Below are positions 4,790-31,029 of a stretch of 38,095 bases of DNA, piece after piece. Source of the stretch: a virus; IMG/VR virus record IMGVR_UViG_3300025669_000100, positions 1-38,095 of that record; one strand, given 5' to 3'. The notes below the pieces were generated by a model that did no database searches, was not told the origin of the DNA, and saw only the letters and a program-made list of their open reading frames with translations. The first letter of the stretch is position 1. Each line of letters begins with the position of its first letter. A program made the translations under genes and the position numbers.

Positions 4790-7117
4790 TTATGTTATTT
4801 CCTCATTGCTGATTAAATTTTTCAGATTAACATACAGGTCGTTCATTCTGCGCTGGTCCGGCTTCTCTCCGTTCGGATGCTTACTATCCCAATCGTACCA
4901 GAAGTTTTCGTATTGATGTACGGCTTCAATAAAATTCTTTACGGGTTGCAACGTATATCCATGAGACTGAATGTCTTTTGCGCTAATGTCGTTTTGGTAT
5001 TTACTTTGCACCAACTCAGGCTTTATTGATAAGTCCTGATACCCTAAGAATCTGGCCATCGCATTAAATTTATCATCCTGAGACTCCTTGCGTTCCCCAC
5101 CACTTAACCTCGCATAATTCTTAAACCTTTCCTCAAACGGCATATTCATTAAGTCATAATAAGAACGGTCTGTTAATTCGGCAACAGCTTGTCCGGCACC
5201 TTCTATTGTATTATATTTTTGACTGAATTTATGCCTTGATTCTGCCGACTCTTTCTTGGAATCATAGATAGTTTTTCCTATTTTGTAGCCTGCATATAAA
5301 GCGGCATAGGGGGTAATTGTAGTTATGGCAGAAATAACACCATTACGGAAACTACTATCTTTCCCATCTTTGTCTTCAGGTTGTGGAGGCCCCTCTTCAT
5401 CATCCAGAGGAGCATTTCCACTTTCAAATACTTCACCATTTTTCCCAACTGAATATGTCTTGCCGTTATAGGTTATGGAGCCACCTTCGGGGAACATCCA
5501 ACTGAGAATACCCAAGCTCGGCAATACGGGGCCGGACCCAAAGTTTAAATATTTTGTCCAATCAGTAATATCACCCCAATTTACATCCCATCTTTTAATT
5601 CCAGACAGGTCAACACCGGGTATGTCAACACCGGAAACGTCAATACCAAATCCTTCCAAAACCTTGAGCAAACCTGACCAATCAAAGTCGCCGCCTTCCT
5701 GATTAACCGCACCGCCTGTCTGACTGACATTCGTGGTCGGCTGTGTGGCAAACATCTTTCCTAATATATCAAATATAGGGGCATATGGGTCGCTTGTTTG
5801 GTTATATGAATTTATGCCTGACTGCATAATACCTGCGTCCTGCCCGGCTGACTGTCCAAACGCTTGTAATAGCTGTGCCGGAGTAAGCTCTTGGTTCTGC
5901 ATATATGAGGCATAGTTGTATAACCCCGTATCTTGCTGACCTTGAGCGTCTTTCATCATACCCCACTCTTGGGATAAGCCCATGAAATAATCCTGCGACT
6001 CTCTGTCAGAAATACCCTGCTGATTAAGGAACATTCTCTGGTCAGTATCGCTCTGGAACCTCATCAGTTCCATGCCACGGGTAAACTCATTGTTTTGTGC
6101 AAGTTCTTCATGCCCCATCAATGACAGCATATCAGCAAAATTACCACGCTCTTGTCCGTAAAGCTGATCGTTAATGCCCATTGCCTGTTGCAATGCCATA
6201 TTTTCATCAGAGGCACGTTTATTAACAGCCTGTTCCGCTAACTGCCCTGTCAGGTCTGCTAATGATAAATCCCTCTTACCATAATAATCTTGGAAAGCAC
6301 TTGATGTTTGGCCTGATTGCCCACCCCAGCCGTAGGCTTCCGCCATGTCCATTAACTGCCGTGTCTGTTCGTCAACATTCATATTAAATCGGTTTATCTG
6401 GCGTTCGTATATTGCCGCTTCTTCTTCGGGTGTATAACCGTACTGTCTGTTAAGAAGCTCAACACCTCTGCTTTGTAACAACTGTGATAGTTCACTACCG
6501 GAACTCGATGGTAAAAACGGTTCCTGTGAGCCGGGGGCGACTTGACCGAGATTGTTCAATATGTCCAAAAGGTCTTGATAGTATTGGTCATATCCACCTG
6601 TTGATGGAGGTTGAACAACGGGGGGCTGATACGTTCCGGGCTCAACTGTCGGTGGCTGGTACAGTTCAGGCGCATACTCTGCTGAACCATATCCCGGAGG
6701 ATTGACGGGCGGGGCCTGAGGTTGTAATGGATTAACTGGGTTTCCCCATGCTGCAGGTGTCGGCAAGTTATTATTTGGGAACTGGCTCATATCAGGACCA
6801 TTACCAAACTGGTCAACAGGAGCGCGGGCAGCCCATGCACTATAATCATCGAAATTATTTAACTGGTCATATTCAGAAGCCCATCCACTAAAATCGGAAA
6901 ACATATTTGGATTCTGCTGTTGTTGCTGTTGCGCCGGTGGCTGGCTATATTCCGCTGCGCCAAAACTCGGTGGCTTCTGCGGTGGCAATATGCTTTGCGC
7001 TGGCCCCACAGAGTATCCGGGGTTTATTAGTTGTGTCGGAGGCTTCTGCGGTGCATATTCTGCCGCACCGTAGTCTTTGGTATCGTAATACTTGCCATTT
7101 CTAAATACTAAAGCCAT
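4790..7117 (-). CDS. Large Pro/Gln-rich protein with GAAEY repeats, probable virion protein
   Basis: This 775-aa protein opens with a low-complexity region containing a degenerate repeat: GAAEYAPQKPP, GAAEYSQPPA and GSAEYAPELYQPP, plus a poly-Gln run. Residues about 200-460 are Gln, Met and Asn-rich and helical. A short region is built of repeated ID-V-GVD phrases (GIDVSGVDIPGVDLSGI). Near residue 590 lies a moderately hydrophobic segment (VISAITTITPYAALYAGYKI), a possible membrane helix. It starts after AAGGAGTGATG. Composition and position suggest an internal virion or ejection protein; the repeat may be a flexible linker. Confidence 0.55.
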   Translation of the reverse strand: MALVFRNGKYYDTKDYGAAEYAPQKPPTQLINPGYSVGPAQSILPPQKPPSFGAAEYSQPPAQQQQQQNPNMFSDFSGWASEYDQLNNFDDYSAWAARAPVDQFGNGPDMSQFPNNNLPTPAAWGNPVNPLQPQAPPVNPPGYGSAEYAPELYQPPTVEPGTYQPPVVQPPSTGGYDQYYQDLLDILNNLGQVAPGSQEPFLPSSSGSELSQLLQSRGVELLNRQYGYTPEEEAAIYERQINRFNMNVDEQTRQLMDMAEAYGWGGQSGQTSSAFQDYYGKRDLSLADLTGQLAEQAVNKRASDENMALQQAMGINDQLYGQERGNFADMLSLMGHEELAQNNEFTRGMELMRFQSDTDQRMFLNQQGISDRESQDYFMGLSQEWGMMKDAQGQQDTGLYNYASYMQNQELTPAQLLQAFGQSAGQDAGIMQSGINSYNQTSDPYAPIFDILGKMFATQPTTNVSQTGGAVNQEGGDFDWSGLLKVLEGFGIDVSGVDIPGVDLSGIKRWDVNWGDITDWTKYLNFGSGPVLPSLGILSWMFPEGGSITYNGKTYSVGKNGEVFESGNAPLDDEEGPPQPEDKDGKDSSFRNGVISAITTITPYAALYAGYKIGKTIYDSKKESAESRHKFSQKYNTIEGAGQAVAELTDRSYYDLMNMPFEERFKNYARLSGGERKESQDDKFNAMARFLGYQDLSIKPELVQSKYQNDISAKDIQSHGYTLQPVKNFIEAVHQYENFWYDWDSKHPNGEKPDQRRMNDLYVNLKNLISNEEIT

Positions 7118-7131
7118 TTTATCATCACTCC

Positions 7132-7713
7132 TTACCCATAAAGTTTTGTATTACCCGGAGGTAGGGCAAGAGGATTTAATTGTCCCTGCATGTTTCGCTG
7201 GCCGAACCTGTTTGCTAACTGATTAAGAAGTACGTTTGTACCCCACAAACCCGTAGGACTCTGGCCACCGCCTGCTAAACGGCTGGTATTAGCCATTAAA
7301 GATGGGTCAACGCCTGTTGGCATCGGAACATTCGGCCCCACTTCGGAATATGGATTAAACCGTGCTGGGGGGTCAACAGGTAAAGGGCTGAACTGCTGTG
7401 TCGATCTCGCTTGTAGCTGCTGTCTCATACTGTCTATTGCCGGATTCTGCGTTTCTCCCTTCGAGGCATTTTGCAACAGCGTTTGCATGTAATTTGTTCT
7501 GCCCTGTGCGCCTGTTATGCCTTTACTTTCCGAACCGGTAAGAGCGTCCAATGGATTGATAACGTCCCTGTTCTGCTGTTTATCCATCATCTGTCCCAAG
7601 AGGTACAGAACGATTAATAGTGGCGATTGCCCCGCAACATTACCTGCCTGAGAAGCAAAGTCGTTAAACCCTCCTGCTGCACCGGAAGTGAAATTGTCAA
7701 TTATGTTTGGCAT
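7132..7713 (-). CDS. Small Gly/Gln-rich virion-region protein with one hydrophobic helix
   Basis: The 193-aa product has a Gly/Ala-rich start, one hydrophobic segment (SPLLIVLYLLGQMM, about residues 30-43) and a long Gln, Pro and Asn-rich remainder. The start ATG follows AAAGGA. It lies between the deacetylase-like gene and the 775-aa protein, 12-14 bases from each, so it is co-transcribed with them. The composition resembles its downstream neighbours, which suggests the same set of internal or ejected proteins. No known family was recognised. Confidence 0.5.
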   Translation of the reverse strand: MPNIIDNFTSGAAGGFNDFASQAGNVAGQSPLLIVLYLLGQMMDKQQNRDVINPLDALTGSESKGITGAQGRTNYMQTLLQNASKGETQNPAIDSMRQQLQARSTQQFSPLPVDPPARFNPYSEVGPNVPMPTGVDPSLMANTSRLAGGGQSPTGLWGTNVLLNQLANRFGQRNMQGQLNPLALPPGNTKLYG

Positions 7714-7725
7714 TTTGTATCCTTT

Positions 7726-8520
7726 CTATTTACGCACTCCATTTTTATATACGGTACCTTCCCAATTAATTCCGTTATGTGAATAGGCAAAGTCCTTGTT
7801 TGCAAATATCCCTGATCTCTCAGCTTGGTAGTATTGGCTCCATGTCAGCACCTCTATGTCACCGGAATCCTCTTTTGTTTTGAGATAATCACTTACAATT
7901 TCAAGACTGTCCACTTCTGCGCTTGTCAAGTCATGCGCAACGATAACCTGCAATCCACCTTCATCTATTCTCTGGTCTATCATGGCTTTAACTGCTGCTG
8001 TATTTCCATCATTTGCCCACGTTGGATAGTAGGCATTAAGTTCATACCAATCGTACCCTGTACCTATGCCGCTTGGGTGGGATTGATGGTCTCGTTTCCA
8101 AGCATTTACATTGATTATATGTTTGTGGCTAATAGAATCCATGACCGCCTGTGTTATCTCCCCACCACCTCCAGCGTATGTATAATAATCTGCTCCGCGT
8201 CTCATTCCATTATTAATAAGATAGTCTCTAGTAAAGTTGATTTCGACACTTATAGAGTCCGCATCTGCCATTGCTGATAAGTCTGCATGGGTCTTTCCGT
8301 GGTTACATAAATCCCATCCATAGCTGTGTAATGTTTTAAGTTCTGACAGATCGAGATATGAACCACCTCCTATACTATAATAATTACACATCACAGTACC
8401 TTTTTGTCCATTCGCCCTCAATACTGGTTCAATTTCATCAAGAACAACTTGATAACCATCGTCAAACTGCCAGATAAATACAGTCTTACCAGTATATCCC
8501 CTGAGGTTGTCAAAGTTAAT
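7726..8520 (-). CDS. Polysaccharide deacetylase (NodB-like) domain with no ordinary start codon
   Basis: The open frame holds the CE4/NodB motifs in order: FDDG (metal Asp; TTT GAC GAT GGT at about 8463-8452), NHGKTH (metal His pair), a degenerate motif 3 (YTYAGGGGE) and VIVAHD (catalytic His). The first TTG, at 8421, would remove FDDG, so translation must begin earlier. Between the in-frame stop at 8526-8524 and that TTG there is no ATG, GTG or TTG. Options are an ATT start at 8520 that overlaps the upstream stop (ATTAA), a +1 ribosomal frameshift from the upstream signal-peptide protein, or a sequence error. As a virion enzyme it could remove acetyl groups from surface glycans during adsorption. 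The C-terminus (NGINWEGTVYKNG) looks like a short beta appendix. Confidence 0.7.
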   Translation of the reverse strand: MNFDNLRGYTGKTVFIWQFDDGYQVVLDEIEPVLRANGQKGTVMCNYYSIGGGSYLDLSELKTLHSYGWDLCNHGKTHADLSAMADADSISVEINFTRDYLINNGMRRGADYYTYAGGGGEITQAVMDSISHKHIINVNAWKRDHQSHPSGIGTGYDWYELNAYYPTWANDGNTAAVKAMIDQRIDEGGLQVIVAHDLTSAEVDSLEIVSDYLKTKEDSGDIEVLTWSQYYQAERSGIFANKDFAYSHNGINWEGTVYKNGVRK

Positions 8521-9361
8521 CTGTTAAACCCCACCGCCACCTTCTGTCAAGATATATTAACCATTTTACATTCTGTCCGTTATCCGTCTGCCCATCAGCT
8601 TTTATATAGAAATGTTGCGAATTGGGGTAATATAATCTATATGGTTTAGACCACTGTTCCGTTCTGCCAATAACCGATATTGTAAAGGAATCAGGGGCAG
8701 CATGATTAAACGCCATTACACCCGTACTTACAATTGACGATTCTCGATTAACATTTGTCTGAATTGCCCTGCCGGGATATATCAGGAATTTACACACCGT
8801 AGAATCAACTCCCGTAACGCTGTCAATGCCTTTTACCTGTATTGAGGTATATGGAGCGCTAACATACACGCCTGTTGAATCATCGCCTGTACCTGCTGTG
8901 TAAAGCGTATCGTACATTGCCCTGAACGATTCTCCCGGATATGCTGCTTTCCACGACCTCGCGCCTCGCATCTGCATATATTCTCTGGCAACAGACTGTA
9001 GCTCAACTTCCGGTGTTGATGTGTAAAGCGTATCAAGATTAGACACATGAACAGAGTCATTTCTTAATACCCTCAACATCAAATCATACTGCTTGAAAGG
9101 TGTTAGCCCGTTCAAGGTATCGGCTCTCTGTGTCGAAGTAGGAAGAATGTATTCAAACATCGTTGAATCCGAACCATCCACAACCGAGATTGAGTCAGGG
9201 GCGACATCGTTTGAATCGCTGAATGACACAACCAGAGATGTTGGTGTAGGCAAACTTATCTCAAAATCATACGGTGCGGTGAAAGTATTGTCGGTTCTTA
9301 CCCTCACAGTAAAAGAGACAATCAATAGTACGATACAAATAAACGGTATAAATTTCTTCAT
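8516..9361 (-). CDS. Signal-anchored beta-rich protein, probable fibre or receptor-binding component
   Basis: I place the start at the ATG at 9361 (MKKFIPFICIVLLIVSFTV) because AGGA lies eight bases upstream; in-frame starts at 9376 and 9370 would add RMKKM residues without a better ribosome site. The protein has a basic n-region, a long hydrophobic core and no clear AXA site, so it may stay anchored. The remainder is Ser, Thr and Asp-rich and beta-like. Residues about 30-120 resemble a fibronectin type III fold (PTPTSLVVSFSDSNDV). It ends exactly where the deacetylase frame begins and may be extended into it by a frameshift. It follows the DNRLRE-like gene. Confidence 0.6.
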   Translation of the reverse strand: MKKFIPFICIVLLIVSFTVRVRTDNTFTAPYDFEISLPTPTSLVVSFSDSNDVAPDSISVVDGSDSTMFEYILPTSTQRADTLNGLTPFKQYDLMLRVLRNDSVHVSNLDTLYTSTPEVELQSVAREYMQMRGARSWKAAYPGESFRAMYDTLYTAGTGDDSTGVYVSAPYTSIQVKGIDSVTGVDSTVCKFLIYPGRAIQTNVNRESSIVSTGVMAFNHAAPDSFTISVIGRTEQWSKPYRLYYPNSQHFYIKADGQTDNGQNVKWLIYLDRRWRWGLTD

Positions 9362-9393
9362 CTTCTTCATCCTCACGTCAAATGGTACATTAA

Positions 9394-10665
9394 TTAAGGT
9401 TTATATAATGGTATATTGTCTCCTTTATTCCACAGGTATCGGGGTGTTTTATTGTATAATTTATAGCTCACAAGGTTTGCGGCGGTGTACGTTATTGTCA
9501 TATAGGGCGAATCATCTTCTAACTGCAAATATTCACTATCTGTAGGAGCACTGTCGCCTACATCTTCGTCTGATATAATCATTAATGTTGTATACCCAAC
9601 ATTATTAATGTTTGTTAATCCTGAGGCATTAAGCGTATAGGTTAAAGTATCACCACTGGATATGCCAACTGTGCTTATTGCTGTCGCTAATTGAGTTACT
9701 GAATAAACACCTGAGCTTGCCCATCCGGTAAAATCATTATACCAACCCGTAACCATATCTTCGCCATCAGCATTAAACGTACCATTTATAAGATACATAT
9801 TAAAATCTGTATCTGATACATCTGCCGATGCTACATATTTTAATGTTGCACTGCTAACGACACTTCCTTGACCTAATGCGGAAGTATCAAAAGACAATAC
9901 TGCCCTCCAACCATAATAATTACCAGTTAAAGTCTGCCCTACTGTCATGGCTGTTTTTCCAACAGCACCAACGGTAGCATCCCTGCCTCCTGCGTATGTA
10001 GCCTCACCAGCATATGACAGTCTACCTGTCTTATCATCTGTATCAGGGATTACCGTTGTTGTCGGGTCAACTGTCACCGGATATGACACAGGGTTTGGCA
10101 TATCTAAATCGTAAGTTAATACGCCGTTATCGTATGTGACAACAACAGGTATGTCCACTCCTTTGGCATCCCATGCCACAGGTTTTGTTGTGCGGAACAG
10201 AAAATCTCCATCATCATTGGTATATATCAACTGTCCATTACTCAACTCAACATTTGCGGCAGTGGTAATTGTCCACGATAATTTAGTGGGGGCTTTATCA
10301 TTATCAAGAATATAGTTCTGCTTAAATCTCGTATCGGTTTCAGTCGCCGCGATGTTAATATCTCTCAACTTGAATAACGGCGTGTAAGCGACTGAATAGT
10401 TCAAATGAGTGAAACTATAGCCTCCGGTTACTTTCTTTGTCACAGTGGCTTTAATGGGCTTGTATTTACCTGTACCCTTATCTTTATAATGCTTCGGCTT
10501 CGCATATATCTTTGTTACTCGTTTGCCGCCACCAATATCGTAAGTCTCTGAGGTTTCGGTAAGAGTCTGGCTATGGGATAGCTCACCCTGCCACCACGCA
10601 AAAAGCACGAGTATTATTATGCCCAATATTATAATAAGAAAGAAGTTAGTTAAACTTTTCAGCAT
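9394..10665 (-). CDS. Membrane-anchored DNRLRE-like beta protein, fibre candidate
   Basis: This 423-aa protein starts with a long hydrophobic helix (FFLIIILGIIILVLFAWW), probably a signal anchor. A beta-rich part ends at YPVTVDPT. Residues about 225-395 resemble a DNRLRE domain: GRDATVGAVG, then WRAVLSFDTSALGQGSVVSS and ATLKYVA, ending with YLQLEDDSPYMTITY. In other proteins such domains sit in extracellular stalks and surface proteins. It lies among fibre-like genes of the late operon, so a tail fibre or adhesion role is likely. The membrane helix is unexpected for a virion protein. The C-terminus is Lys and Tyr-rich. Confidence 0.6.
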   Translation of the reverse strand: MLKSLTNFFLIIILGIIILVLFAWWQGELSHSQTLTETSETYDIGGGKRVTKIYAKPKHYKDKGTGKYKPIKATVTKKVTGGYSFTHLNYSVAYTPLFKLRDINIAATETDTRFKQNYILDNDKAPTKLSWTITTAANVELSNGQLIYTNDDGDFLFRTTKPVAWDAKGVDIPVVVTYDNGVLTYDLDMPNPVSYPVTVDPTTTVIPDTDDKTGRLSYAGEATYAGGRDATVGAVGKTAMTVGQTLTGNYYGWRAVLSFDTSALGQGSVVSSATLKYVASADVSDTDFNMYLINGTFNADGEDMVTGWYNDFTGWASSGVYSVTQLATAISTVGISSGDTLTYTLNASGLTNINNVGYTTLMIISDEDVGDSAPTDSEYLQLEDDSPYMTITYTAANLVSYKLYNKTPRYLWNKGDNIPLYKP

Positions 10666-10674
10666 TTCATTCCT

Positions 10675-11355
10675 TTATGGATTTGATATATATAACTTAG
10701 GGACACCAACAAAAGTAGTATCGTTCTCAGTTTGGATTATACCCTTTAAGCGAAAGCGCCCCCCAGTTATATTGGGTGTGTCAATAGCTACTGTGCGTGT
10801 TGTTCTCGCTGTTGTGCTTACCGAATCATCAGCCACATCTTCAAATTTTAACTGCCATGAAACATCAGTTGAATCATCCCATACGCTGAAAGCTGCGTAG
10901 TCTGTGCCATCGGTTGTTTCTGTCCACAGGTCTATTTCAATACTGTCAAGAACAGCTAAAGGGTTACCCAAATTGTAATTAAGGTATAGGGTAACGGTTT
11001 CAACAACACCTTCATCGTTCGCTATATACAAGCATTGGTCGTTACCTATTGATGTATCAACGCTGATCTCGATTGTCAGGCTATCGTTCTCAGCAACAGA
11101 ATCAGCATAGGCTTGAGTCCAACTAAGATAAATGGTTTCCGGAAGTCTTACGTTGACCGTATCGCCTATTTCATCCTGTAAGGTATCAAGTAAGGTATCA
11201 AGCCCGGCGTTTAATAGGCTTAAATTCCCGTTGTATGTTGCTGCGGGCAAATTGTCACCAACGCTCTTGGTCGTCAAGGTAACATAACTGTAACCCCAAT
11301 GACTCAACAGACAGAAAGTAATAATCAATATTAGGATTGGATATGTCTTTTTCAT
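10675..11355 (-). CDS. Signal-peptide protein with fibre-like N-terminus
   Basis: The 226-aa product has an MKKTYPILILIITFCLLSHW signal sequence with a possible cleavage after GYS. The mature start (KSVGDNLPAATYNGNLSLLN) resembles N-terminal segments of phage fibre proteins, followed by a short helix and an acidic Thr/Ser/Asp-rich beta domain. The ATG overlaps the stop of the upstream tail-tubular-like gene by 4 bp, so the two are translationally coupled. The Cys in the hydrophobic core is not in a good lipobox. Probable role is a particle appendage; no family was firmly recognised. Confidence 0.6.
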   Translation of the reverse strand: MKKTYPILILIITFCLLSHWGYSYVTLTTKSVGDNLPAATYNGNLSLLNAGLDTLLDTLQDEIGDTVNVRLPETIYLSWTQAYADSVAENDSLTIEISVDTSIGNDQCLYIANDEGVVETVTLYLNYNLGNPLAVLDSIEIDLWTETTDGTDYAAFSVWDDSTDVSWQLKFEDVADDSVSTTARTTRTVAIDTPNITGGRFRLKGIIQTENDTTFVGVPKLYISNP

Positions 11356-12929
11356 TTTAGTATTATTTGCCTTCCTGGGATATAGGTTGAGCCAATGGAG
11401 TATATCTTGAATGGTTCATCAGCGCTATTATTCCTCACCTTTAATCGTATCATTCTGCCTTCGCCCTTTATTTCCTCACCGGTAATAACTAAATCAGTCG
11501 AGCCGGGAGTTCCTGCAAGAACACTATTGTCAAGATAAAATTCGTCAAATACAGCGTATGACGATGATGCTGTATGCGTGACAGTATATGTGTCGATAGC
11601 AAATTCATAATAGGCATCTATTGTTAAATCATAATTGCCGTAATAGATATATTGTAGATTAACCGATTTGAATAATTTACTATAAAGAGGCTGGCCGCCA
11701 TCATAAGATTTAGTTATAAAGTAAGCGTCAATCGCTGCGCCTGCATCGTTATAGCTATTATCATATTGATACCAATACCCGCTGTAGTCTGTTCCAACAA
11801 GGAGGTCAGCCCCTCCCACCTTCAATATTCCGAGTGAACTTATTTCCCAATCGAATAATCCGGAAATAGCCCAATTCCGTAAATCGTAAATGATTACCTG
11901 ATTATTACCGCCCGCACTGTTTGCTTCGCAAACGAACACATACCATCGTTTCGGTTTATAATGAACACCGATTGAATACTGAAGTTTAGCCGGTGTCAAA
12001 GTCTCCCACGTTGGATCAATCTTATCTGTTATCTTTATAATTGTTAGACCACTTGTCAGCATTTTTAAACCGTCATTGTCAGCCCATATAAGTATTAACT
12101 GACCGTCCGGAGTAAGGCATTCTTGGATACTATAGGGCGAAATGCACCCATGTTTCTTACTTATTACATCAACCCTGAAAGTTCCCCTGCCACCTATCGT
12201 TGCGCCTAAAGATGGGTCAAATGCAAGATAGTGTATTGATGATTTGCACAATACAATAAGCATCGAGTTATTAACATCGCCCAATACTTTTAAACCAATA
12301 ATCGGCTCCTCAAAATCTTGCCAATCGTCAGGATGAAATTCTTGCCAATCGGCCATATATCTTGACCAATATAATCGCCTTCCCTGAGAAAGAAATAACC
12401 GCCCGTGAAAAGTCTCGCAGGACGTTGGTGCTGTTGGTATGTTTGTTCCTGATAAAGTTGTTGCCGTACCTGTTCCTGTATAATAGAAGGCCGGATTTGT
12501 GCCGTTCACTCCTACCATTACATTGTTCACCATCGTAAATAAAATATTGGTATCGGCTGTCAATGTTACCGATCCCGTTATATCAACCCACGTTGAATCG
12601 CCTGACTTATAATTTATCTCTGTTCCGGCAGTTCCTATTATCTTATCGCCTGCCGTGAAATGAGCAAGATATATTCCTGTACCCTGACTCGTACCGGCTA
12701 TTCTTTTATATCCAGTATATCGGGTATATCCGTTGCGCTTGACTATTCCTTTGGCATCAAGAAAACAGTTTACGCTTTCTGTTAATTCGTTATCCTCAAC
12801 GCCGCCTGCACCGTCCCTTGTATTTAATCCACCTGCAAAAGACGGCATGTCGATAAACTGCAAATTAGGAATATCGGCATCGACAACAGAAACGAATAGT
12901 ATTAAAATTATAAATATGAGTTTTTTCAT
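11352..12929 (-). CDS. Tail-tubular-protein-B-like structural protein with a signal peptide
   Basis: This 525-aa protein contains the motif seen near the start of podovirus tail tubular B or stabilisation proteins: FAGGLNTRDGAGGVEDNELT, then SVNCFLDAKGIVKRNGYTRY. The beta-rich body matches a propeller-type tail nozzle. Unlike those proteins, it starts with a clean Sec signal (MKKLIFIILILFVSVVDA, cleavage likely before DIP). The ATG lies five bases after AGGA, which itself is on the 3' edge of a strong hairpin. The upstream adaptor-like gene and downstream fibre genes support a tail nozzle role. The signal peptide on such a protein is the odd feature. Confidence 0.7.
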   Translation of the reverse strand: MKKLIFIILILFVSVVDADIPNLQFIDMPSFAGGLNTRDGAGGVEDNELTESVNCFLDAKGIVKRNGYTRYTGYKRIAGTSQGTGIYLAHFTAGDKIIGTAGTEINYKSGDSTWVDITGSVTLTADTNILFTMVNNVMVGVNGTNPAFYYTGTGTATTLSGTNIPTAPTSCETFHGRLFLSQGRRLYWSRYMADWQEFHPDDWQDFEEPIIGLKVLGDVNNSMLIVLCKSSIHYLAFDPSLGATIGGRGTFRVDVISKKHGCISPYSIQECLTPDGQLILIWADNDGLKMLTSGLTIIKITDKIDPTWETLTPAKLQYSIGVHYKPKRWYVFVCEANSAGGNNQVIIYDLRNWAISGLFDWEISSLGILKVGGADLLVGTDYSGYWYQYDNSYNDAGAAIDAYFITKSYDGGQPLYSKLFKSVNLQYIYYGNYDLTIDAYYEFAIDTYTVTHTASSSYAVFDEFYLDNSVLAGTPGSTDLVITGEEIKGEGRMIRLKVRNNSADEPFKIYSIGSTYIPGRQIILK

Positions 12930-12937
12930 GGTTTCCT

Positions 12938-12974
12938 AAAAGGGCAGGCAGGCTTTGAACCCACCAGCCCTTTT
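12938..12974 (-). terminator. Strong hairpin between two virion genes, terminator or processing site
   Basis: AAAAGGGC at 12938-12945 pairs with GCCCTTTT at 12967-12974, and G/C-rich inner bases extend the stem with wobble pairs. On the minus strand the hairpin ends in a TTTT run, followed directly by AGGA, the ribosome site of the tail-tubular-like gene. Because the structure is symmetric it could act on either strand. Inside an operon it may reduce read-through, protect an mRNA end or be cleaved. Confidence 0.6.
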
Positions 12975-12995
12975 ATTTCAAGGGTAAACTCTGAT

Positions 12996-13586
12996 TTAAA
13001 AATCAGAATACGTCACAATGATATCGTACATGCTCCCCGTGTATGGGCATGTATCATCACTATCATTCATAAGTATATCGAAATACTTACTGTATGCTTT
13101 GGCTTTCTGATAGTTGACCAAATCATTAAGATAGACCATCGACGAATCGTAATCGCCCGTACCCGCTACTATTGCAGTTGCAGTCGGGTTCCATAACGTG
13201 ATCGCTGCCGAAGCACTGTCAAAATTAGTTGTAGTCGGCGCAATTTGCATCTGGAAGGGGTCAAACAGTTGTATTTGACCAACCATTACTTTACGTTGCT
13301 TGTCAGCATAGAATCGCGCATAAACATCACAGCCGGTAGAATCGTTGTTTGCTGTGTTGAACGAATCGGGCGAACTTGACGAATATCCCGGCCCGATAGA
13401 AACGGTCATATTCTTATGGACGACCCATACCGATGTTGAATCTCTACCCGAGCTAATAACAGTCAACGTGTTTTGGTACGTATCTATTATCGCATCGTTG
13501 GGCCAGGTTGCAATACCCACAAGCCCAATAAGAGACAACAGAAACACTGTTATCATTTTTGTGTATATCTTATTCATAATTATCAT
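12996..13586 (-). CDS. Small exported virion-region protein of unknown function
   Basis: I favour the ATG at 13586, closely following AAGGAAGGTG; an ATG at 13577 (MNKIYTK) is an alternative. The 196-aa product has a basic start and a hydrophobic core (MITVFLLSLIGLVGIA) with a likely signal peptidase I site before TWPND. The mature part is Ser/Thr/Asp-rich and beta-like, with a helical C-terminal third. It lies between the adaptor-like and tail-tubular-like genes and is separated from the latter by a hairpin. No family was recognised; a small tail or neck protein is plausible from position. Confidence 0.55.
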   Translation of the reverse strand: MIIMNKIYTKMITVFLLSLIGLVGIATWPNDAIIDTYQNTLTVISSGRDSTSVWVVHKNMTVSIGPGYSSSSPDSFNTANNDSTGCDVYARFYADKQRKVMVGQIQLFDPFQMQIAPTTTNFDSASAAITLWNPTATAIVAGTGDYDSSMVYLNDLVNYQKAKAYSKYFDILMNDSDDTCPYTGSMYDIIVTYSDF

Positions 13587-13598
13587 CACCTTCCTTTA

Positions 13599-14237
13599 TT
13601 AGAACTTACGAGGTATTGTTGCTGTTGGTTTGGCGCGTACACCACGCCCCTTTAGAGCCTTCTTTATACTGGAAAAAAAGTAATTCCCTTGTGCCTGCCA
13701 CTCTTCCTTTCCGTATCGTCTCATGGCAAGCCATAAAGCTCCATCAACAATGACACTGTGGTTTTTTGGATTATAAGAAATGTCAGCCGCCGCAGTCGTG
13801 TACTCAATCTCATCCGGTAGTGCCAAATAATCATAATAGACCGTTCCTGTGTGAAGAGGGTAAATGATTAAATTATACCCATTCATGGCATACCAATAGG
13901 GGTTCCCTGTCCGGGAATGGTCGGGGTCAACTCCATCAATATATCCTTTTGACTTCAACTCAAGATTGCGATTTTCTGCCCTTACGGTCTTGTCAATTAT
14001 TCTACCGAAATCAGATTGCTCAGACAGCATGTCATAACTGAAACTTCCTATAGCAGCAAGGGTGTTGTTTTGGGAAATCAACTCCGGCCAATCGCCTTCA
14101 GTAAACATATAGTCAGAAGCGATTTTATTAATGAATCTTATAATCTCGGTCTGCACTGCTGTTTTAGCCCTGTCTAAACTAACCACATTGCATACTTCGG
14201 CAACCATATCCTCGGCTGATATTCCCGCCCAACTCAT
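13599..14237 (-). CDS. Head-tail adaptor / tail-tubular-A-like protein
   Basis: The 212-aa product has an N-terminal helical region (AEDMVAEVCNVV) and a central segment typical of podovirus adaptor proteins: GNPYWYAMNGYNLIIYPLHT, followed by VYYDYLALPDE and a helical C-terminal part (IVDGALWLAMRRYG). Adaptors of this kind link the portal to the tail nozzle. It starts at an ATG overlapping the previous stop (TAATG). Unlike many neighbours it has no signal peptide. Family assignment rests on pattern and gene order. Confidence 0.6.
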   Translation of the reverse strand: MSWAGISAEDMVAEVCNVVSLDRAKTAVQTEIIRFINKIASDYMFTEGDWPELISQNNTLAAIGSFSYDMLSEQSDFGRIIDKTVRAENRNLELKSKGYIDGVDPDHSRTGNPYWYAMNGYNLIIYPLHTGTVYYDYLALPDEIEYTTAAADISYNPKNHSVIVDGALWLAMRRYGKEEWQAQGNYFFSSIKKALKGRGVRAKPTATIPRKF

Positions 14238-14572
14238 TATGCTTTATCCTTTTCCACCACAGGTGGGGTTGTTTTTGATTTTGGTACGTGAACGGGAACG
14301 GCTACTCTGAAGTTCTCGAACTTGCCGATATTATTAGGTTCTTTGAGCTTCTTGTTTTTGCGTTCGGCTTTCAGTTTGTTGGCGACTTGCTGCCCTCGAA
14401 TATCAGCGTTGACAACAGCCATGCCAATGTCCTCGGGCATTTCACAGACAGGATTGCGATAACCCGGTATTTTCTTAAATACGTGATTACCGATACGCTG
14501 TCTCGCACCAACAGCCTCAATCATAATGTTATCGACTGATACCATCTGTACTCTCTGCCGGTTCTGATTCAT
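14237..14572 (-). CDS. Small basic virion-region protein, unknown
   Basis: This 111-aa protein is basic and polar, with no membrane segment. A middle block (VFKKIPGYRNPVCEMPEDIG) is followed by a Lys-rich helix and a Pro/Lys tail. The start follows AGGAGATGATAAAAAA. It lies between the exported 153-aa protein and the adaptor, and its stop overlaps the adaptor start by one base. Position next to the capsid gene suggests a head or connector accessory, but no family was recognised. Confidence 0.5.
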   Translation of the reverse strand: MNQNRQRVQMVSVDNIMIEAVGARQRIGNHVFKKIPGYRNPVCEMPEDIGMAVVNADIRGQQVANKLKAERKNKKLKEPNNIGKFENFRVAVPVHVPKSKTTPPVVEKDKA

Positions 14573-14586
14573 TTTTTTATCATCTC

Positions 14587-15048
14587 CTAACGTAATCTTA
14601 TTGGTTTAATTTCTCGTTCTTTTGAAAATACATTTACATCAAATGTAATCGCACTGTCAGCATGACTATTCGTTAATCTTAATAATATATACGGGTACTT
14701 CGATTCAGCAAATAGGGTGTCGGATATAGCGTAATTCTTAGTTGTTTTAACCTGCCTTATAATAGCGGTTGTTTTAAGAATCCGGAACTTATTGGAATCA
14801 GATAACGCCGGTGAGAATCCTCCATAGATTCCCAACGTGAATTTAAGTGAATCCCCGTCTGCCAATCCATAAACACCAAAGTTTATTTCATCCTCTCTGT
14901 CGGTTACGTATAAAGGTCCTTTAATCGTAGTCTGCCCCTTTAACAGTTCAACTGATTCAACGGCCTCCCATACACCGTACTCATTAAATTGTTCGGCATG
15001 GGCAACCCCTATACACGCTAACAGTGCGATTATCATTATTGGTTTCAA
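14587..15048 (-). CDS. Small exported protein encoded directly after the capsid gene, possible lipoprotein
   Basis: I choose a TTG start at 15048, one base after the capsid stop (TAGATTG) and about ten bases after AGGGGA; an ATG at 15036 is a shorter option. The product (153 aa) begins MKPIMIIALLACIGVAHAEQ. This contains both a lipobox-like LLAC and a signal peptidase I site (AHA before E), so it could be a lipoprotein or a cleaved exported protein. The remainder is beta-rich (LLKGQTTIKGPLYV). In other phages this slot often holds a capsid decoration or structural protein. Confidence 0.6.
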   Translation of the reverse strand: MKPIMIIALLACIGVAHAEQFNEYGVWEAVESVELLKGQTTIKGPLYVTDREDEINFGVYGLADGDSLKFTLGIYGGFSPALSDSNKFRILKTTAIIRQVKTTKNYAISDTLFAESKYPYILLRLTNSHADSAITFDVNVFSKEREIKPIRLR

Positions 15049-15049
15049 T

Positions 15050-16261
15050 CTACCAAGTTCCCCTGATAGGCGTTGCCGGTGAATATGTGGACACAATCAA
15101 GCGTCCCTGGTCGATAAGGGTTGAGTTGCCATCATCAGAAATATACCTTGCCCCGGCCATTCCGAAGATACCACCTATCGCTTCACCGATTTTGTTGTTA
15201 TAGTCAAAAGTTTTCTTTTCCTCAAGATGAGGATGAACCGCTATAGCAACGGCTACAGCATTCGAGCCGAGGAATATAGCCCTGTACACATCAGACGCAT
15301 TTGAATCTATCTCAACGGTACTGAGCGTCCACGCTGTGTTAAACAGAGTTTCATCTCCCGAATGGACATAATTGCTTTCGAGAATCAAACAGTTGTTCCA
15401 GTAGGCTACTGCGCCGTTAAAGATACCACCTGAGAAAATAGGATTGCTCTTAGAATCTCTTGGGATAGCAGTTGCGGCAGCGTTGAACCAGTCGGTATTA
15501 GACCGCAACTGAGCGATCTGATAAGGATGGGCTATACAGATGTAACATTCCAATCCTTTGTACCGTACTTTCGGGAAATTGTTGACTTTCATTTTTGCAA
15601 CAGCACCCTCGATAGTTGACGGACTGAATTTATCAGTGTCAACATCAGTGAGTGCGGCTTCCGCGGCTTTGATATTGGTGAAATATGTTGCATCGGTTGA
15701 GGAATAAGTAATTGGATTACTCACCTCGTCGGCGGTGTACCAATATCTCGCTGGGATACTGGTGTTTGAATTGAGGTTCAAACCGCCAGTTGCGGTTGCG
15801 GGCAGAAGATGCGGAGAATAATTGTAATACATGGCATAAAACATTGATATTTCAAAATACTTCGCATACCACAACGAAAGGGCTTTCTTGCTTCTTTCGT
15901 GCAGGCCGTAATTATCCCGCTGCCGTGTCATTGCACCGTCATCAGTTACAGCGTTACGCCACTGATTGACGTACACCGCCTGATCGTAAAACAGGAGTCG
16001 TTCTTCGCTTGCTTCCAGGGTTACATCACCAATTTTACCAACCCCTGTAAGATTGCCCTGCATTCCGATCTTGATTGTGTCGCCTGCCTCTTTCATCAAC
16101 TGCGATTTGCGGACGAACGGCAACATATCGCCCTCTGTTCCCATTAGCGGAGACAGTATCATCTCATTTTCAAAATATGTCGCTAATGACTTTTCAATAA
16201 TCTCTGGTACGAGTTCCCGATAAGTCGCTGCTCCGGGGACTCCCCAACTTGTATCAGTCAT
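15050..16261 (-). CDS. Major capsid protein, N4-gp56-like family
   Basis: The 403-aa protein matches the N4-gp56 capsid pattern: an N-terminal RELVPEIIEKSLATYFEN, a GDTIKIGMQGNLTG block, EERLLFYDQAVYVNQWRNAV and a following helix (LHERSKKALSLWYAKYFE). A conserved-looking YICIAHPYQIAQLR and a C-terminal SNAVAVAIAVHPHLEEKKTF complete an HK97-like capsid fold. The start ATG is preceded by GGAAGGTGAAGTTTA. The scaffold gene lies upstream and the portal beyond it, the usual order. No protease cleavage region is apparent. Confidence 0.85.
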   Translation of the reverse strand: MTDTSWGVPGAATYRELVPEIIEKSLATYFENEMILSPLMGTEGDMLPFVRKSQLMKEAGDTIKIGMQGNLTGVGKIGDVTLEASEERLLFYDQAVYVNQWRNAVTDDGAMTRQRDNYGLHERSKKALSLWYAKYFEISMFYAMYYNYSPHLLPATATGGLNLNSNTSIPARYWYTADEVSNPITYSSTDATYFTNIKAAEAALTDVDTDKFSPSTIEGAVAKMKVNNFPKVRYKGLECYICIAHPYQIAQLRSNTDWFNAAATAIPRDSKSNPIFSGGIFNGAVAYWNNCLILESNYVHSGDETLFNTAWTLSTVEIDSNASDVYRAIFLGSNAVAVAIAVHPHLEEKKTFDYNNKIGEAIGGIFGMAGARYISDDGNSTLIDQGRLIVSTYSPATPIRGTW

Positions 16262-17616: not shown

Positions 17617-19479
17617 TTACGCCTGTAATGCTTGAGGTGGTCGCCGCACACCTCTCGCTGGTCTTGGTGTGCCTGCACTGCTGCCGCCCTGTGGAGGGCG
17701 TTGCTGACCCATCTGTTGCTGTTGAGACTCGAACGCCTGCATCGCTTCAAATTCTTTCTGTATATCATTGGCGAACGAGAACCCGTAAGACTTCAAAATA
17801 AACTTAGTTAATATTGTCTGGTACTGTGGCGGCAATCCACGCATAAGTTCAATCATCTGGAACTTCTCGCGCTCACGCTCTGTCTTTGACCTGCCATCAT
17901 GTTCGAGTACAAAGTCATACTGCCCTATAGAAAGATCATTCGCTATCTTTCCAAACGCAGCTTTGTTAATAACAAGTTCTTCGTTTGTGATATTCGGAGC
18001 TTCGTTTATTCCGGTTATACGGACAAACCTTTCTTCGGTATAATAGTTCTGTATCCACCATACCATAGCTTTCGACTCAAGATATTTTGATTCATCAAAG
18101 TTATCAAGAATACCCGCAAGTTGCGTGGCCGCCTGATTTGTCTCATGTCGTTTTGCGCTGCCTGACATAACCTTTTGGTTCATGCCGCCGATAGCGTCTT
18201 TTGCACCTGACGTTATCTTTGCCGCAGCATCCTCCCTATCTTCCATTGCCAGGAACGGAGAGATCAATCCCATATCAGCATGGCTGAAAGGTCTTACCTT
18301 GTCAATATATCCATCCTCGACCTCAAGATTAAATCCGTTTTGAACTATCTTCTCTGAGATGTTTTCTTTATCCTCTTCTTTAATTGCGCCTTCCTCATAA
18401 ATAAAACCTATCTGCGCTATTGATGAAAGGATATGTATAGCTGAAGCGTGGCGGTAATTTCTTTCTTCCTGTGGGCTGAACACGTTTTCCACTACACCCA
18501 TGTATCTGCCATCGTCCCAATACGGGAAGAAGAAATTAAATAGCTGATTAAATTCTATTGCGCCGGTGCTGCCATCCTCTATTTCAATACCATCGGGTCC
18601 CATTGTTGTCAGGTGAATATGGGGCATCTGTCTTTTAACAATATTATCACCCATAATATCTTGTATTTCTTTGTCAAACCCTTCAATGTCAGTGTAATCA
18701 TCTGTTACGGGATCATAAACAAAATCTTTTTCTTCCCATATTTTCTCATAACATTCGATTATCCGATACTGATTATTTTCAAGATCATACCCTCTGTCTA
18801 TTACATTGCCGGGTTTACTTAGATTGCCATAATCGTTAGACTCGCCCTCCCAGTTCGCCGGAGCTTGGTGCGTTCTGATACTTTCCCTTAGTACCATCCC
18901 ACCACCTTTTATTTGGTCTGCAGTCTTTTTCCCGTATATACGTTTTATTTCTTCATAGACAAGATATATAACACGATGGATTTTTCTTGTATCTGATTGG
19001 TCATATTGCCGGGTATTTGGGTCAAGATAGAAATCATCAGACGGTTTATAGTGTATCTTTAAATTGCCTTTCAAATCATCTTCTGTATCAAACCATAGTT
19101 CCTTAACACCGATACCAGTAATAATGCCTTTGTAGAACTGGCGTTTATCCTGGTCGTGTATTCGGTTAAGATTCTCGATTTGTTTTTTTACAGCAGTTAT
19201 TATCTCGGCAATTTCACTGTCAGCGTATTCATCAACCGGAACAGCGACCAGGTCAGTTCTGTTTTGTAAAAAATGGCCTAAGATAATATCCACAGCCGGA
19301 AGTATGATATTATTAACCACAGGAGCGCGATGCTGTGCTGTTAACTGCGCTTTCTCCTGATCCGTCCACTGATTACCCCTGAGATATTCACCGGCTTTTT
19401 TAGCTATATCGTCCCACACTTTTTCCCGGTGTGTTTTAGCCTCAAGATAACCCTGATATTTTTCGCTTTCTACCGACAT
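17617..19479 (-). CDS. Portal protein
   Basis: The 620-aa protein fits podovirus/P22-like portals. It has an N-terminal helical region with YLRGNQWTDQEKAQ, a VVNNIILPAVDIILGHFLQN block, VPVDEYADSEIAEI, GIITGIGVKELWFD, then YKPSDDFYLDPNTRQYDQSD. The middle includes FFPYWDDGRYMGVVENVFSP, and the C-terminus is Gln-rich and basic. Portals form the dodecameric DNA channel at one capsid vertex and bind terminase. The gene starts two bases after the terminase stop, with a modest GGAAAG site. Order terminase-portal-scaffold-capsid supports the call. Confidence 0.9.
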   Translation of the reverse strand: MSVESEKYQGYLEAKTHREKVWDDIAKKAGEYLRGNQWTDQEKAQLTAQHRAPVVNNIILPAVDIILGHFLQNRTDLVAVPVDEYADSEIAEIITAVKKQIENLNRIHDQDKRQFYKGIITGIGVKELWFDTEDDLKGNLKIHYKPSDDFYLDPNTRQYDQSDTRKIHRVIYLVYEEIKRIYGKKTADQIKGGGMVLRESIRTHQAPANWEGESNDYGNLSKPGNVIDRGYDLENNQYRIIECYEKIWEEKDFVYDPVTDDYTDIEGFDKEIQDIMGDNIVKRQMPHIHLTTMGPDGIEIEDGSTGAIEFNQLFNFFFPYWDDGRYMGVVENVFSPQEERNYRHASAIHILSSIAQIGFIYEEGAIKEEDKENISEKIVQNGFNLEVEDGYIDKVRPFSHADMGLISPFLAMEDREDAAAKITSGAKDAIGGMNQKVMSGSAKRHETNQAATQLAGILDNFDESKYLESKAMVWWIQNYYTEERFVRITGINEAPNITNEELVINKAAFGKIANDLSIGQYDFVLEHDGRSKTEREREKFQMIELMRGLPPQYQTILTKFILKSYGFSFANDIQKEFEAMQAFESQQQQMGQQRPPQGGSSAGTPRPARGVRRPPQALQA

Positions 19480-19480
19480 A

Positions 19481-21136
19481 TTACGCTACTTTCCAATTAA
19501 AACCTTCGTTTTTGGTAAGTCTGTTTTTATACCCACCTACATATCTTGATTTAGCCTTTTTTACTCGTTTCGGTTTTACCATGTCTCTTTGCATGTGCGC
19601 CAAAATATCAATTATATCCATCGTCTTACCCATAGGAAACCGGTTGAACTCTATCTCTATCTCAGAATGGTTCTGTGAGTGTGTCCAGATAAGCCCACGT
19701 TCCCACGGAAGTTGTAATGTGCGTATATGGTCGATTTTATCTTCCGTGCGTTTACGCTTAAACTCCTGAAACCTTGATATTGGTATCTTGCGTTTTTTCA
19801 GTTCTTTTATTATTGGATCGACGAGATGCACATCACCGCCTTCTGTCTCAAGACCGTATTTCAAAAGCCCGTAGTTGTTATACCAGTGTTCGACTTCATC
19901 ACAATAGGTTGGCACAATCTTACCTGACGACCATTTGCCAATTATATATTTCAATACGAACATGCGCCCAATGGTATCTACCCCAATAATAAGAATGACA
20001 GTATTTGATTTAGCGGTTTTTTTACTGCTCCTGTTAGGGTCGCACCCAAGAAATATATTGAGGCTACGATACCATTTGTCTAATAGCTTTTCATAATTAA
20101 CAGGTGGGGAATCGACAAAATCACCCTTCCTCAACACATCACCATCCCACTGTTTCCGAAACCCCACCTTAAACTCTTGCGTTTCTTTGTTAATAGGGTC
20201 GTTCATCATCTCGCATGAAAATGAATACGGTGTTACGTTGGCCTTGTCCCTTAACACTTTAGCTATTACTTCCTCATCGTTCCATATCCATTCACCATTC
20301 TCTATGACCGCTCTTTTATATATCTTAGCGTTTAAATCCGCAATCATGTACCCATAAAGATCGTCGTCCTTTTTCCGTGTCCCAATAGTAACCATATACC
20401 CACCGGGATTAAGCAGGTAGTTACTGCTATCAAAATTATCAATAATCGTCTGTGTTGTTTCGTCTGATTTAGCGTTCTTTTCAGCCATTAGATCATCGTT
20501 AATAATTAAGTCGCAATGAAGCCCTGTGGCGTTTGACGCTGCTCCGGCAACCTTTATAGAGGGGTCTTTGACAATAATGGTTCGCTCAACCTTTATTGCT
20601 CCGGTATTCCACATATCATATTTCTTTGTCTGAGTGTCAGCGCGCTTTGGTTTTAAATCGGGGAAAACAAACTGCAATCGTTTGTTCTGAAGTATATGGT
20701 CTTTTATTTCACTAAGATAACTTGAGGCAATATCATCAGTAGCAGCTTTTATTAATATTCTGCTATTAGGGTTTTTGCCTAATTCCCATAATGATTTGCA
20801 GATTGTGCCTATTTTAGTTTTGAGATGGTATCGGGGAATAACAAGTAGTTCGTCTTTCTGGTATTGCAATATCCAGCAGATTTCACCATGCAGGTTAACA
20901 TCGAGTTTATTAAAAAATATTGGGTCTCTAATGATTTCATCGCAGAAAAAATAAAAATCATTCACAGCAAGGAATCTCACACGCTCAACAAAAGCGTGGT
21001 ATTCTTCCGGACTGTGTTCAGGTGCATACGCCCACCAATCTTGATCCGGCCATTTCCAGGGATACCATTCCCTGTCCTTAACCGGACCAAAGCCTGCGAG
21101 TAATTCGTTGTCTGTTACCACACTTCCCATCATCAT
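19481..21136 (-). CDS. terL: Terminase large subunit
   Basis: This about 551-aa protein has an N-terminal ATPase: a deviant Walker A (VIPRYHLKTKIGT, near residue 100) and a Walker B (CDLIINDDLM, near 210) followed by VTIGTRKKDDD, a coupling-type motif. The C-terminal nuclease region has Asp residues in FLGCDPNRSSKK, VHLVDPII and MDIIDILAHMQRD. It packages DNA into the prohead in concert with the small subunit and the portal. Start choice is uncertain: GTG at 21142 or ATGs at 21136, 21133 and 21130, none with a strong ribosome site. Low coupling distance to the neighbours indicates co-translation. Confidence 0.9.
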   Translation of the reverse strand: MMMGSVVTDNELLAGFGPVKDREWYPWKWPDQDWWAYAPEHSPEEYHAFVERVRFLAVNDFYFFCDEIIRDPIFFNKLDVNLHGEICWILQYQKDELLVIPRYHLKTKIGTICKSLWELGKNPNSRILIKAATDDIASSYLSEIKDHILQNKRLQFVFPDLKPKRADTQTKKYDMWNTGAIKVERTIIVKDPSIKVAGAASNATGLHCDLIINDDLMAEKNAKSDETTQTIIDNFDSSNYLLNPGGYMVTIGTRKKDDDLYGYMIADLNAKIYKRAVIENGEWIWNDEEVIAKVLRDKANVTPYSFSCEMMNDPINKETQEFKVGFRKQWDGDVLRKGDFVDSPPVNYEKLLDKWYRSLNIFLGCDPNRSSKKTAKSNTVILIIGVDTIGRMFVLKYIIGKWSSGKIVPTYCDEVEHWYNNYGLLKYGLETEGGDVHLVDPIIKELKKRKIPISRFQEFKRKRTEDKIDHIRTLQLPWERGLIWTHSQNHSEIEIEFNRFPMGKTMDIIDILAHMQRDMVKPKRVKKAKSRYVGGYKNRLTKNEGFNWKVA

Positions 21137-21152
21137 CCACACGCGGTTACTA

Positions 21153-30549: not shown

Positions 30550-31029
30550 ATGTGTCAGACGATCTCAGGGATAGCGGTAAAATCAGGTGATACCGTTAAG
30601 GTTTACACATCATCAAAAAGTGATAGCCACACAGATATAAGAGAAGAGTTTCATATCAGGGACGACAACTCACCGATTGCCAACAACCAAACGCCGGTTG
30701 AATTAATACCCAAAACCAGCTTAACGGAAATTGGCGGCATGAATTTCATATTTGACGCCGGTCGTCCTGATTGGTGGACCGATGATATGACAGAAGAAGC
30801 CACACGGCAGCTTTATCATGATCTAATGAGAAGATGGAACAACGAGCGTACGGTATTTAGTTTTGAAGGCGACCTTGACCTTAACAGTCTCACATCTATA
30901 CCCGAAGGCGTGACACTCAAAGCAGGCGGCGACCTTTACCTTAACAATCTCACATCCATACCCGAAGGCGTGACACTTGAAGCAGGCAACATTTACCTCT
31001 TCGACAGTATCTTGGGACCGAGAGGGTAA
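30550..31029 (+). CDS. LRR-like repeat protein with decayed last repeat
   Basis: The N-terminal 110 residues (MCQTISGIAVKSGDTVKVYT, then DSHTDIREEFHIRD, and DAGRPDWWTDDMTEEATRQL) look like a family present in phages with C-terminal repeats. The repeat is GDLYLNNLTSIPEGVTLEAG: two copies are 60 bases each (about 30868-30987) and nearly identical in DNA, and a third (GNIYLFDSILGPRG) is degenerate and the frame then ends, giving 159 aa. LRR-like parts bind proteins. The family function is unknown to me. It is preceded by AAAAGGAGGAACCAA. Confidence 0.55.
   Translation: MCQTISGIAVKSGDTVKVYTSSKSDSHTDIREEFHIRDDNSPIANNQTPVELIPKTSLTEIGGMNFIFDAGRPDWWTDDMTEEATRQLYHDLMRRWNNERTVFSFEGDLDLNSLTSIPEGVTLKAGGDLYLNNLTSIPEGVTLEAGNIYLFDSILGPRG
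30868..30987 (+). repeat. Two tandem 60-bp direct repeats
   Basis: Two consecutive 60-base units, each starting GGCGACCTT and containing ACCCGAAGGCGTGACACT, differ at only a few bases. They encode LRR-like repeats. A partial third unit follows but has diverged. Recent duplication is the simplest reading. Confidence 0.8.

Follow-up and report, generated by a model that had tools for sequence, protein, structure and literature searches.

Candidate export signals on nozzle-like and fibre-like proteins of a tailed phage that carries a lipoprotein signal peptidase gene

The window analysed here is a virus record of 38,095 bases (IMGVR_UViG_3300025669_000100). Its late module lies on the minus strand, running from ~22 kb down to 0.2 kb, and comprises in order genes for a lipoprotein signal peptidase (LspA), terminase, portal, a scaffold-position open reading frame (ORF), capsid, adaptor, a nozzle-like protein and fibre-like proteins. 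It continues with a NodB-like ORF and long internal-virion-type ORFs, and ends with a small membrane protein and a DUF5675 gene. The presence of TerL, a P22-type portal, a PF13252 capsid and an SU10 adaptor identifies a tailed dsDNA phage with a P22/SU10-like head module (Table 1). A host search across 84,980 species genomes found neither a capsid relative nor a portal relative, and no tRNA was found within the window. Early genes, among them YqaJ and RecT-like recombination genes, are on the plus strand, where ORF 30550-31029 also contains two 60-nt tandem units (30868-30987) that are 92% alike and encode leucine-rich-repeat-like sequence.

Table 1 Features of the late module and of related contigs (window coordinates unless a contig is named).
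Feature	Position	Strand	Evidence
LspA, 140 aa	21514..21936	-	PF01252, E=1.7e-17, 64.4 bits vs cut-off 25
Terminase large subunit	19481..21142	-	phrog_38, E=8.1e-64; no signal
P22-like portal	17617..19479	-	PF16510, E=6.8e-77; no signal
Major capsid protein	15050..16261	-	PF13252, E=5e-36; no signal
gp15048, 153 aa, directly after capsid gene	14587..15048 (TTG)	-	signal MKPIMIIALLACIGVAHA, then EQ
111-aa protein inside the block	14237..14572	-	no signal
SU10-type adaptor	13599..14237	-	PF24175, 34 bits vs cut-off 27; no signal
gp13577, 193 aa	12996..13577 (ATG)	-	signal MNKIYTKMITVFLLSLIGLVGIA, then TWP
Nozzle/tail-tubular-B-like protein, 525 aa	11352..12929	-	signal MKKLIFIILILFVSVVDA, then DIP
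gp11355, 226 aa	10675..11355	-	signal MKKTYPILILIITFCLLSHWGYS, then YVT
gp10665, 423 aa	9394..10665	-	N-terminal membrane anchor or long signal
gp9361, 281 aa	8516..9361 (ATG)	-	N-terminal anchor or signal MKKFIPFICIVLLIVSFTV
NodB-like polysaccharide deacetylase ORF	7726..8520	-	PF01522, E=0.0013, below cut-off
Distant contigs L008/L019/L022 and L018	IMG/VR 3300035698_016814 and 3300031227_007443		
Signal-bearing late proteins and lipobox protein, distant contigs	L019 17413-20610, 20620-20952; L022 1712-2971, 4256-4870		

All six ORFs that the initial annotation had credited with N-terminal signals are present in the interval bounded by the major capsid gene and the deacetylase-like ORF, and each begins with a short charged region followed by a strongly hydrophobic core. 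They had been described as consecutive, which is not strictly so, as the adaptor gene and the gene for a 111-aa protein intervene. Using a heuristic filter that requires a basic n-region and 10 residues with a mean Kyte-Doolittle value of ≥2.2, none of them charged or strongly polar, we found that 6 of the 49 window genes pass at the chosen starts, all within the block (6/8 block genes vs 0/41 others; Fisher p=2e-6, a measure of clustering and not an independent test, because the block had been chosen for its signals). Composition-preserving shuffles pass in 0.5-1.6% of trials per protein. As previously proposed, the capsid, portal and adaptor proteins carry no such signal; it is also missing from the terminase and from the scaffold-position ORF. 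The six lack any second stretch of comparable hydrophobicity, which argues against ordinary multi-pass membrane proteins; when alternative starts are scanned more loosely, LspA, a true membrane protein, is picked up as well.

Four of the proteins (gp15048, gp13577, the nozzle-like protein and gp11355) have the architecture of a Sec signal cut by signal peptidase I, that is, a basic n-region, an h-region and small residues at -3 and -1. The three sites named beforehand, AHA/EQ in gp15048, GIA/TWP in gp13577 and VDA/DIP in the nozzle-like protein, are all found in the sequences, and gp11355 has GYS/YVT. The c-regions of gp10665 and gp9361 are ambiguous, and these two resemble uncleaved anchors no less than cleaved signal peptides. 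A lipoprotein reading of the six was rejected, as no lipobox is conserved among them: the lipobox-like LLAC of gp15048 is missing in a sister phage, and the Cys of gp11355, kept in both phages, follows F or L at -1.

In a mechanical ORF list, the first start of 3 of the 6 genes is not ATG. We refined the starts using Shine-Dalgarno sequences and the sister phage, and every start considered lies upstream of the hydrophobic core. Of the 6 starts, 4 have a suitably spaced Shine-Dalgarno match. The gp15048 TTG has AGGGGA upstream, and the gp11355 start overlaps the nozzle stop codon. An internal nozzle start at Met 28 (MPSFAGGLN), which would give a cytoplasmic form, was rejected because the sister phage carries Ile at that position.

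The sister contig, L004, is 81% identical to the window in the capsid, 77% in the nozzle and 51% in LspA. It has all six genes with a signal on each, including MKLISIVVLILSIGVAHA then DN in the gp15048 homologue (7435-7896), SLA/LWP in the gp13577 homologue (8914-9498) and MKKLILLFLIILLSQSAYA then DIA in the nozzle homologue. Between the two phages, the signals are 44% identical (60/135) vs 64% (216/338) for the next 60 residues (p=1.3e-4), and dN is 0.50 for signals vs 0.28 for mature parts; synonymous sites are saturated, with a pooled mature dS of ~3 and a signal dS that is not estimable. Peak hydrophobicity of the signals is nevertheless unchanged (3.0-3.9). Signal peptides usually evolve in this manner, changing quickly in sequence while keeping their physical character. 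An excess of hydrophobic-to-hydrophobic exchanges in the h-region was not significant (41/65 = 63% vs 59% expected), and thus we do not take it as evidence. For gp15048 (AHA/EQ and AHA/DN) and the nozzle (VDA/DIP and AYA/DIA), both phages keep small residues at -3 and -1 with an acidic residue next in line, which points to cleavage of these two by signal peptidase I. A second contig, L003, is near-identical to the window and, like L004, agrees with it; the full six-gene arrangement is represented by only two closely related genomes. Two further features of L004 are a terminase large subunit in two ORFs (1313-2101 and 2108-2968) and an inserted NUMOD3 protein (11111-11659) that separates the nozzle from the gp11355 homologue.

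One of the six had been called tail-tubular-B-like, and profile comparisons support this. In hhalign, the window and L004 proteins matched the nozzle-position proteins of KLEP18-1, RHph_Y1_10 and Mae-JY35 over residues 99-349 with 92% probability (E=6.7e-7); of these three, only that of KLEP18-1 carries a nozzle annotation. Comparison with the MW202497 stabilization protein gave E=4.1e-5 over residues 32-519. No hydrophobic N-terminal signal was found in the homologous nozzles examined. AlphaFold models built from two-sequence alignments reached a pLDDT of 32 for the nozzle and 31 for gp15048. PHROG 5107, labelled 'amidase', matches nozzle-like proteins including that of the window; we judged this a label problem, since the family also matches an annotated stabilization protein. 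The description of the other proteins as fibre-like is plausible for the distal ones, where gp10665 has a DUF7948 match and a weak DNRLRE match and gp9361 has a weak Fn3-type match.

The window shares with the P22/SU10-type phages Paracoccus phage KLEP18-1, Rhizobium phage RHph_Y1_10 and Microcystis phage Mae-JY35 a capsid family (25-29% identity), the portal-capsid-adaptor-nozzle gene order and similarity in the nozzle, but these phages have no N-terminal signals in their virion regions. More widely, among seven reference phages with a related capsid or nozzle, ~187 ORFs of ≥80 aa were filtered and five passed, none in a virion module, in line with the earlier view that a block of export signals is unusual. 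Annotated virion proteins of the Bacteroidota phages phi14:2 and phi38:1 of Cellulophaga (mostly MS/MS-supported in the phi14:2 record, by similarity for phi38:1) likewise have none. A signal match in contig L027 belongs to a lysozyme-like protein and was set aside as not a virion protein.

A comparison of homologues, as suggested in the initial annotation, thus finds all six signals kept in the sister phage, and a second lineage echoes the pattern in part. This distant lineage (L008, L019 and L022; capsid 24-32% identical) shares its metagenome number with L003. Signals are found there on the post-capsid gene, a 1065-aa fibre-like protein and proteins of 110 and 419 aa, alongside a lipoprotein-like 204-aa protein with the lipobox MTGC. 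The post-capsid site reads AWA/DN in L019 and AFA/DS in L018, whose capsid is 83% identical to that of L008 and whose post-capsid protein, at 64% identity, keeps the signal. As in the window, the post-capsid gene carries a signal and, in L019 and L022, so do fibre-like late genes; unlike in the window, the nozzle-like genes have none, LspA was not found in the contig record, and the post-capsid protein has no detectable homology to gp15048. A signal at this position therefore either recurs or is very old. In L008, a 994-aa portal-position ORF (5462-8446) has an intein-like insertion (CYSPDTEALTDKGW...).

The LspA gene lies beside the terminase and is conserved in L004 (535-951; PF01252, E=6.9e-15). 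Like bacterial LspA (SPase II), the phage protein matches the family above the Pfam cut-off and has both catalytic-Asp motifs, VVDY/VIDY and FNLAD, which are kept in the window and L004 and align with the solved LspA 6ryo. It differs in being phage-encoded and short, in scoring below the NCBIfam TIGR00077 equivalog cut-off (40.1 vs 73.95 bits) and in having Gly where the usual bacterial motif, NLIDR, has Arg. A one-sequence tblastn of 50,697 phage records returned a single weak match, to an unverified, unannotated faecal scaffold; as such a search can miss diverged members, phage LspA is close to absent only at this sensitivity. No PHROG family convincingly matches, and we found no paper on phage LspA in the open-access literature, which is weak evidence of absence. 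A phage-encoded LspA thus appears from these searches to be new for phages. With no conserved lipobox among the six proteins, LspA has no evident link to them; its candidate substrates are host lipoproteins or an unrecognised phage protein.

For the tailed phages lambda, T7, T4 and P4, folding takes place in the cytoplasm; Sec precursors are processed by SPase I and lipoproteins by SPase II (PMC4823517). Export signals together with a signal peptidase gene are odd in a tailed phage, whose particles are generally taken to be built intracellularly. Our preferred reading, held tentatively and at somewhat less than an even chance, is that tail and fibre parts go by Sec to the inner membrane or across it, and meet DNA-filled heads either beyond the cytoplasm or when the cell lyses. 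Sec-type signals would target the six proteins to the inner membrane, where host signal peptidase I would probably cleave about four, making them periplasmic, and one or two (gp10665 and gp9361) would probably stay anchored. The terminase, portal, capsid and adaptor, made without signals, would form DNA-filled, adaptor-closed heads in the cytoplasm, and these heads would gain the nozzle and fibres at the inner membrane or when it is breached at lysis. The sequence evidence supports export well; that it takes place, together with cleavage, presence in the virion and the place of joining, is inferred. Split assembly is the simplest reading because the signals are on the nozzle and fibres and not on the portal, capsid or adaptor. 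The same distribution counts against it, since a nozzle with a signal and an adaptor without one would sit on opposite sides of the membrane until a breach. The nozzle of P22-type phages helps to retain DNA, and late joining would therefore need another plug. A wider version, in which particle building is split across the inner membrane, exported parts mature in the periplasm and the phage signal peptidase takes part in envelope processing, is possible but doubtful.

A known parallel is with filamentous phages (Ff/M13), whose pIII and pVIII carry signal peptides that are cleaved off. Their virion proteins pass through the inner membrane and assemble there, as proposed here, and leave from it (PMC4823517). 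They are ssDNA filaments without capsid, portal or terminase, whereas the window, with all three, belongs to a tailed dsDNA phage and not to an Inoviridae-type one.

It is unlikely, but a serious rival for the distal genes, that most of the six are exported non-virion proteins of a late operon, with only the nozzle-like protein structural. At the surface or in the periplasm they might prevent superinfection, bind envelope polysaccharide or modify it, or contribute to lysis. The domains of the distal genes (DUF7948, and weakly DNRLRE and Fn3) occur in bacterial secreted proteins and the NodB-like ORF adjoins them, but the explanation is weaker for the nozzle-like and post-capsid genes, which are also signal-bearing, sit where related phages have virion genes and, for the post-capsid gene, have a signal-bearing counterpart in a distant lineage. 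Improbable for the set as a whole is a role of the hydrophobic N-termini as uncleaved anchors that dock either tail assembly or the entire particle at the inner membrane. Anchoring without cleavage is likely for gp10665 and gp9361, which have long cores and no conserved cleavage site, whereas the small -3/-1 residues and following acid that gp15048 and the nozzle keep in both phages argue for removal.

Very improbable is a third possibility, that the N-termini stay on the virion and enter the membrane of the next host during DNA ejection. Short-tailed phages do have ejection proteins that interact with membranes, and several of the six may be tail proteins; a basic n-region with an AXA-type c-region is nevertheless the architecture of an export signal, and the homologous nozzles examined do without such an N-terminus. 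We give almost no credence to an artefact, whether from misplaced start codons, hydrophobic stretches arising by chance or a chimaeric contig: against the non-ATG first starts stand refined starts that all precede the cores, mostly behind a Shine-Dalgarno match, and the agreement of the near-identical contig and the sister phage.

If split assembly across the membrane is correct, it is a route that we did not find described for tailed phages in the open-access literature. If tail parts do carry conserved export signals, assembly would have to involve a second compartment, and the site of tail attachment would become directly testable. A phage-borne LspA would, for its part, represent a new way for a virus to control the host envelope.

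The frame of the NodB-like ORF that bounds the block opens at the gp9361 stop codon (8490-8530, minus strand; ATTAACTTTGAC), with no ATG, GTG or TTG ahead of the FDDG motif, which suggests either an ATT start or a +1 shift that fuses gp9361 and the NodB-like ORF.
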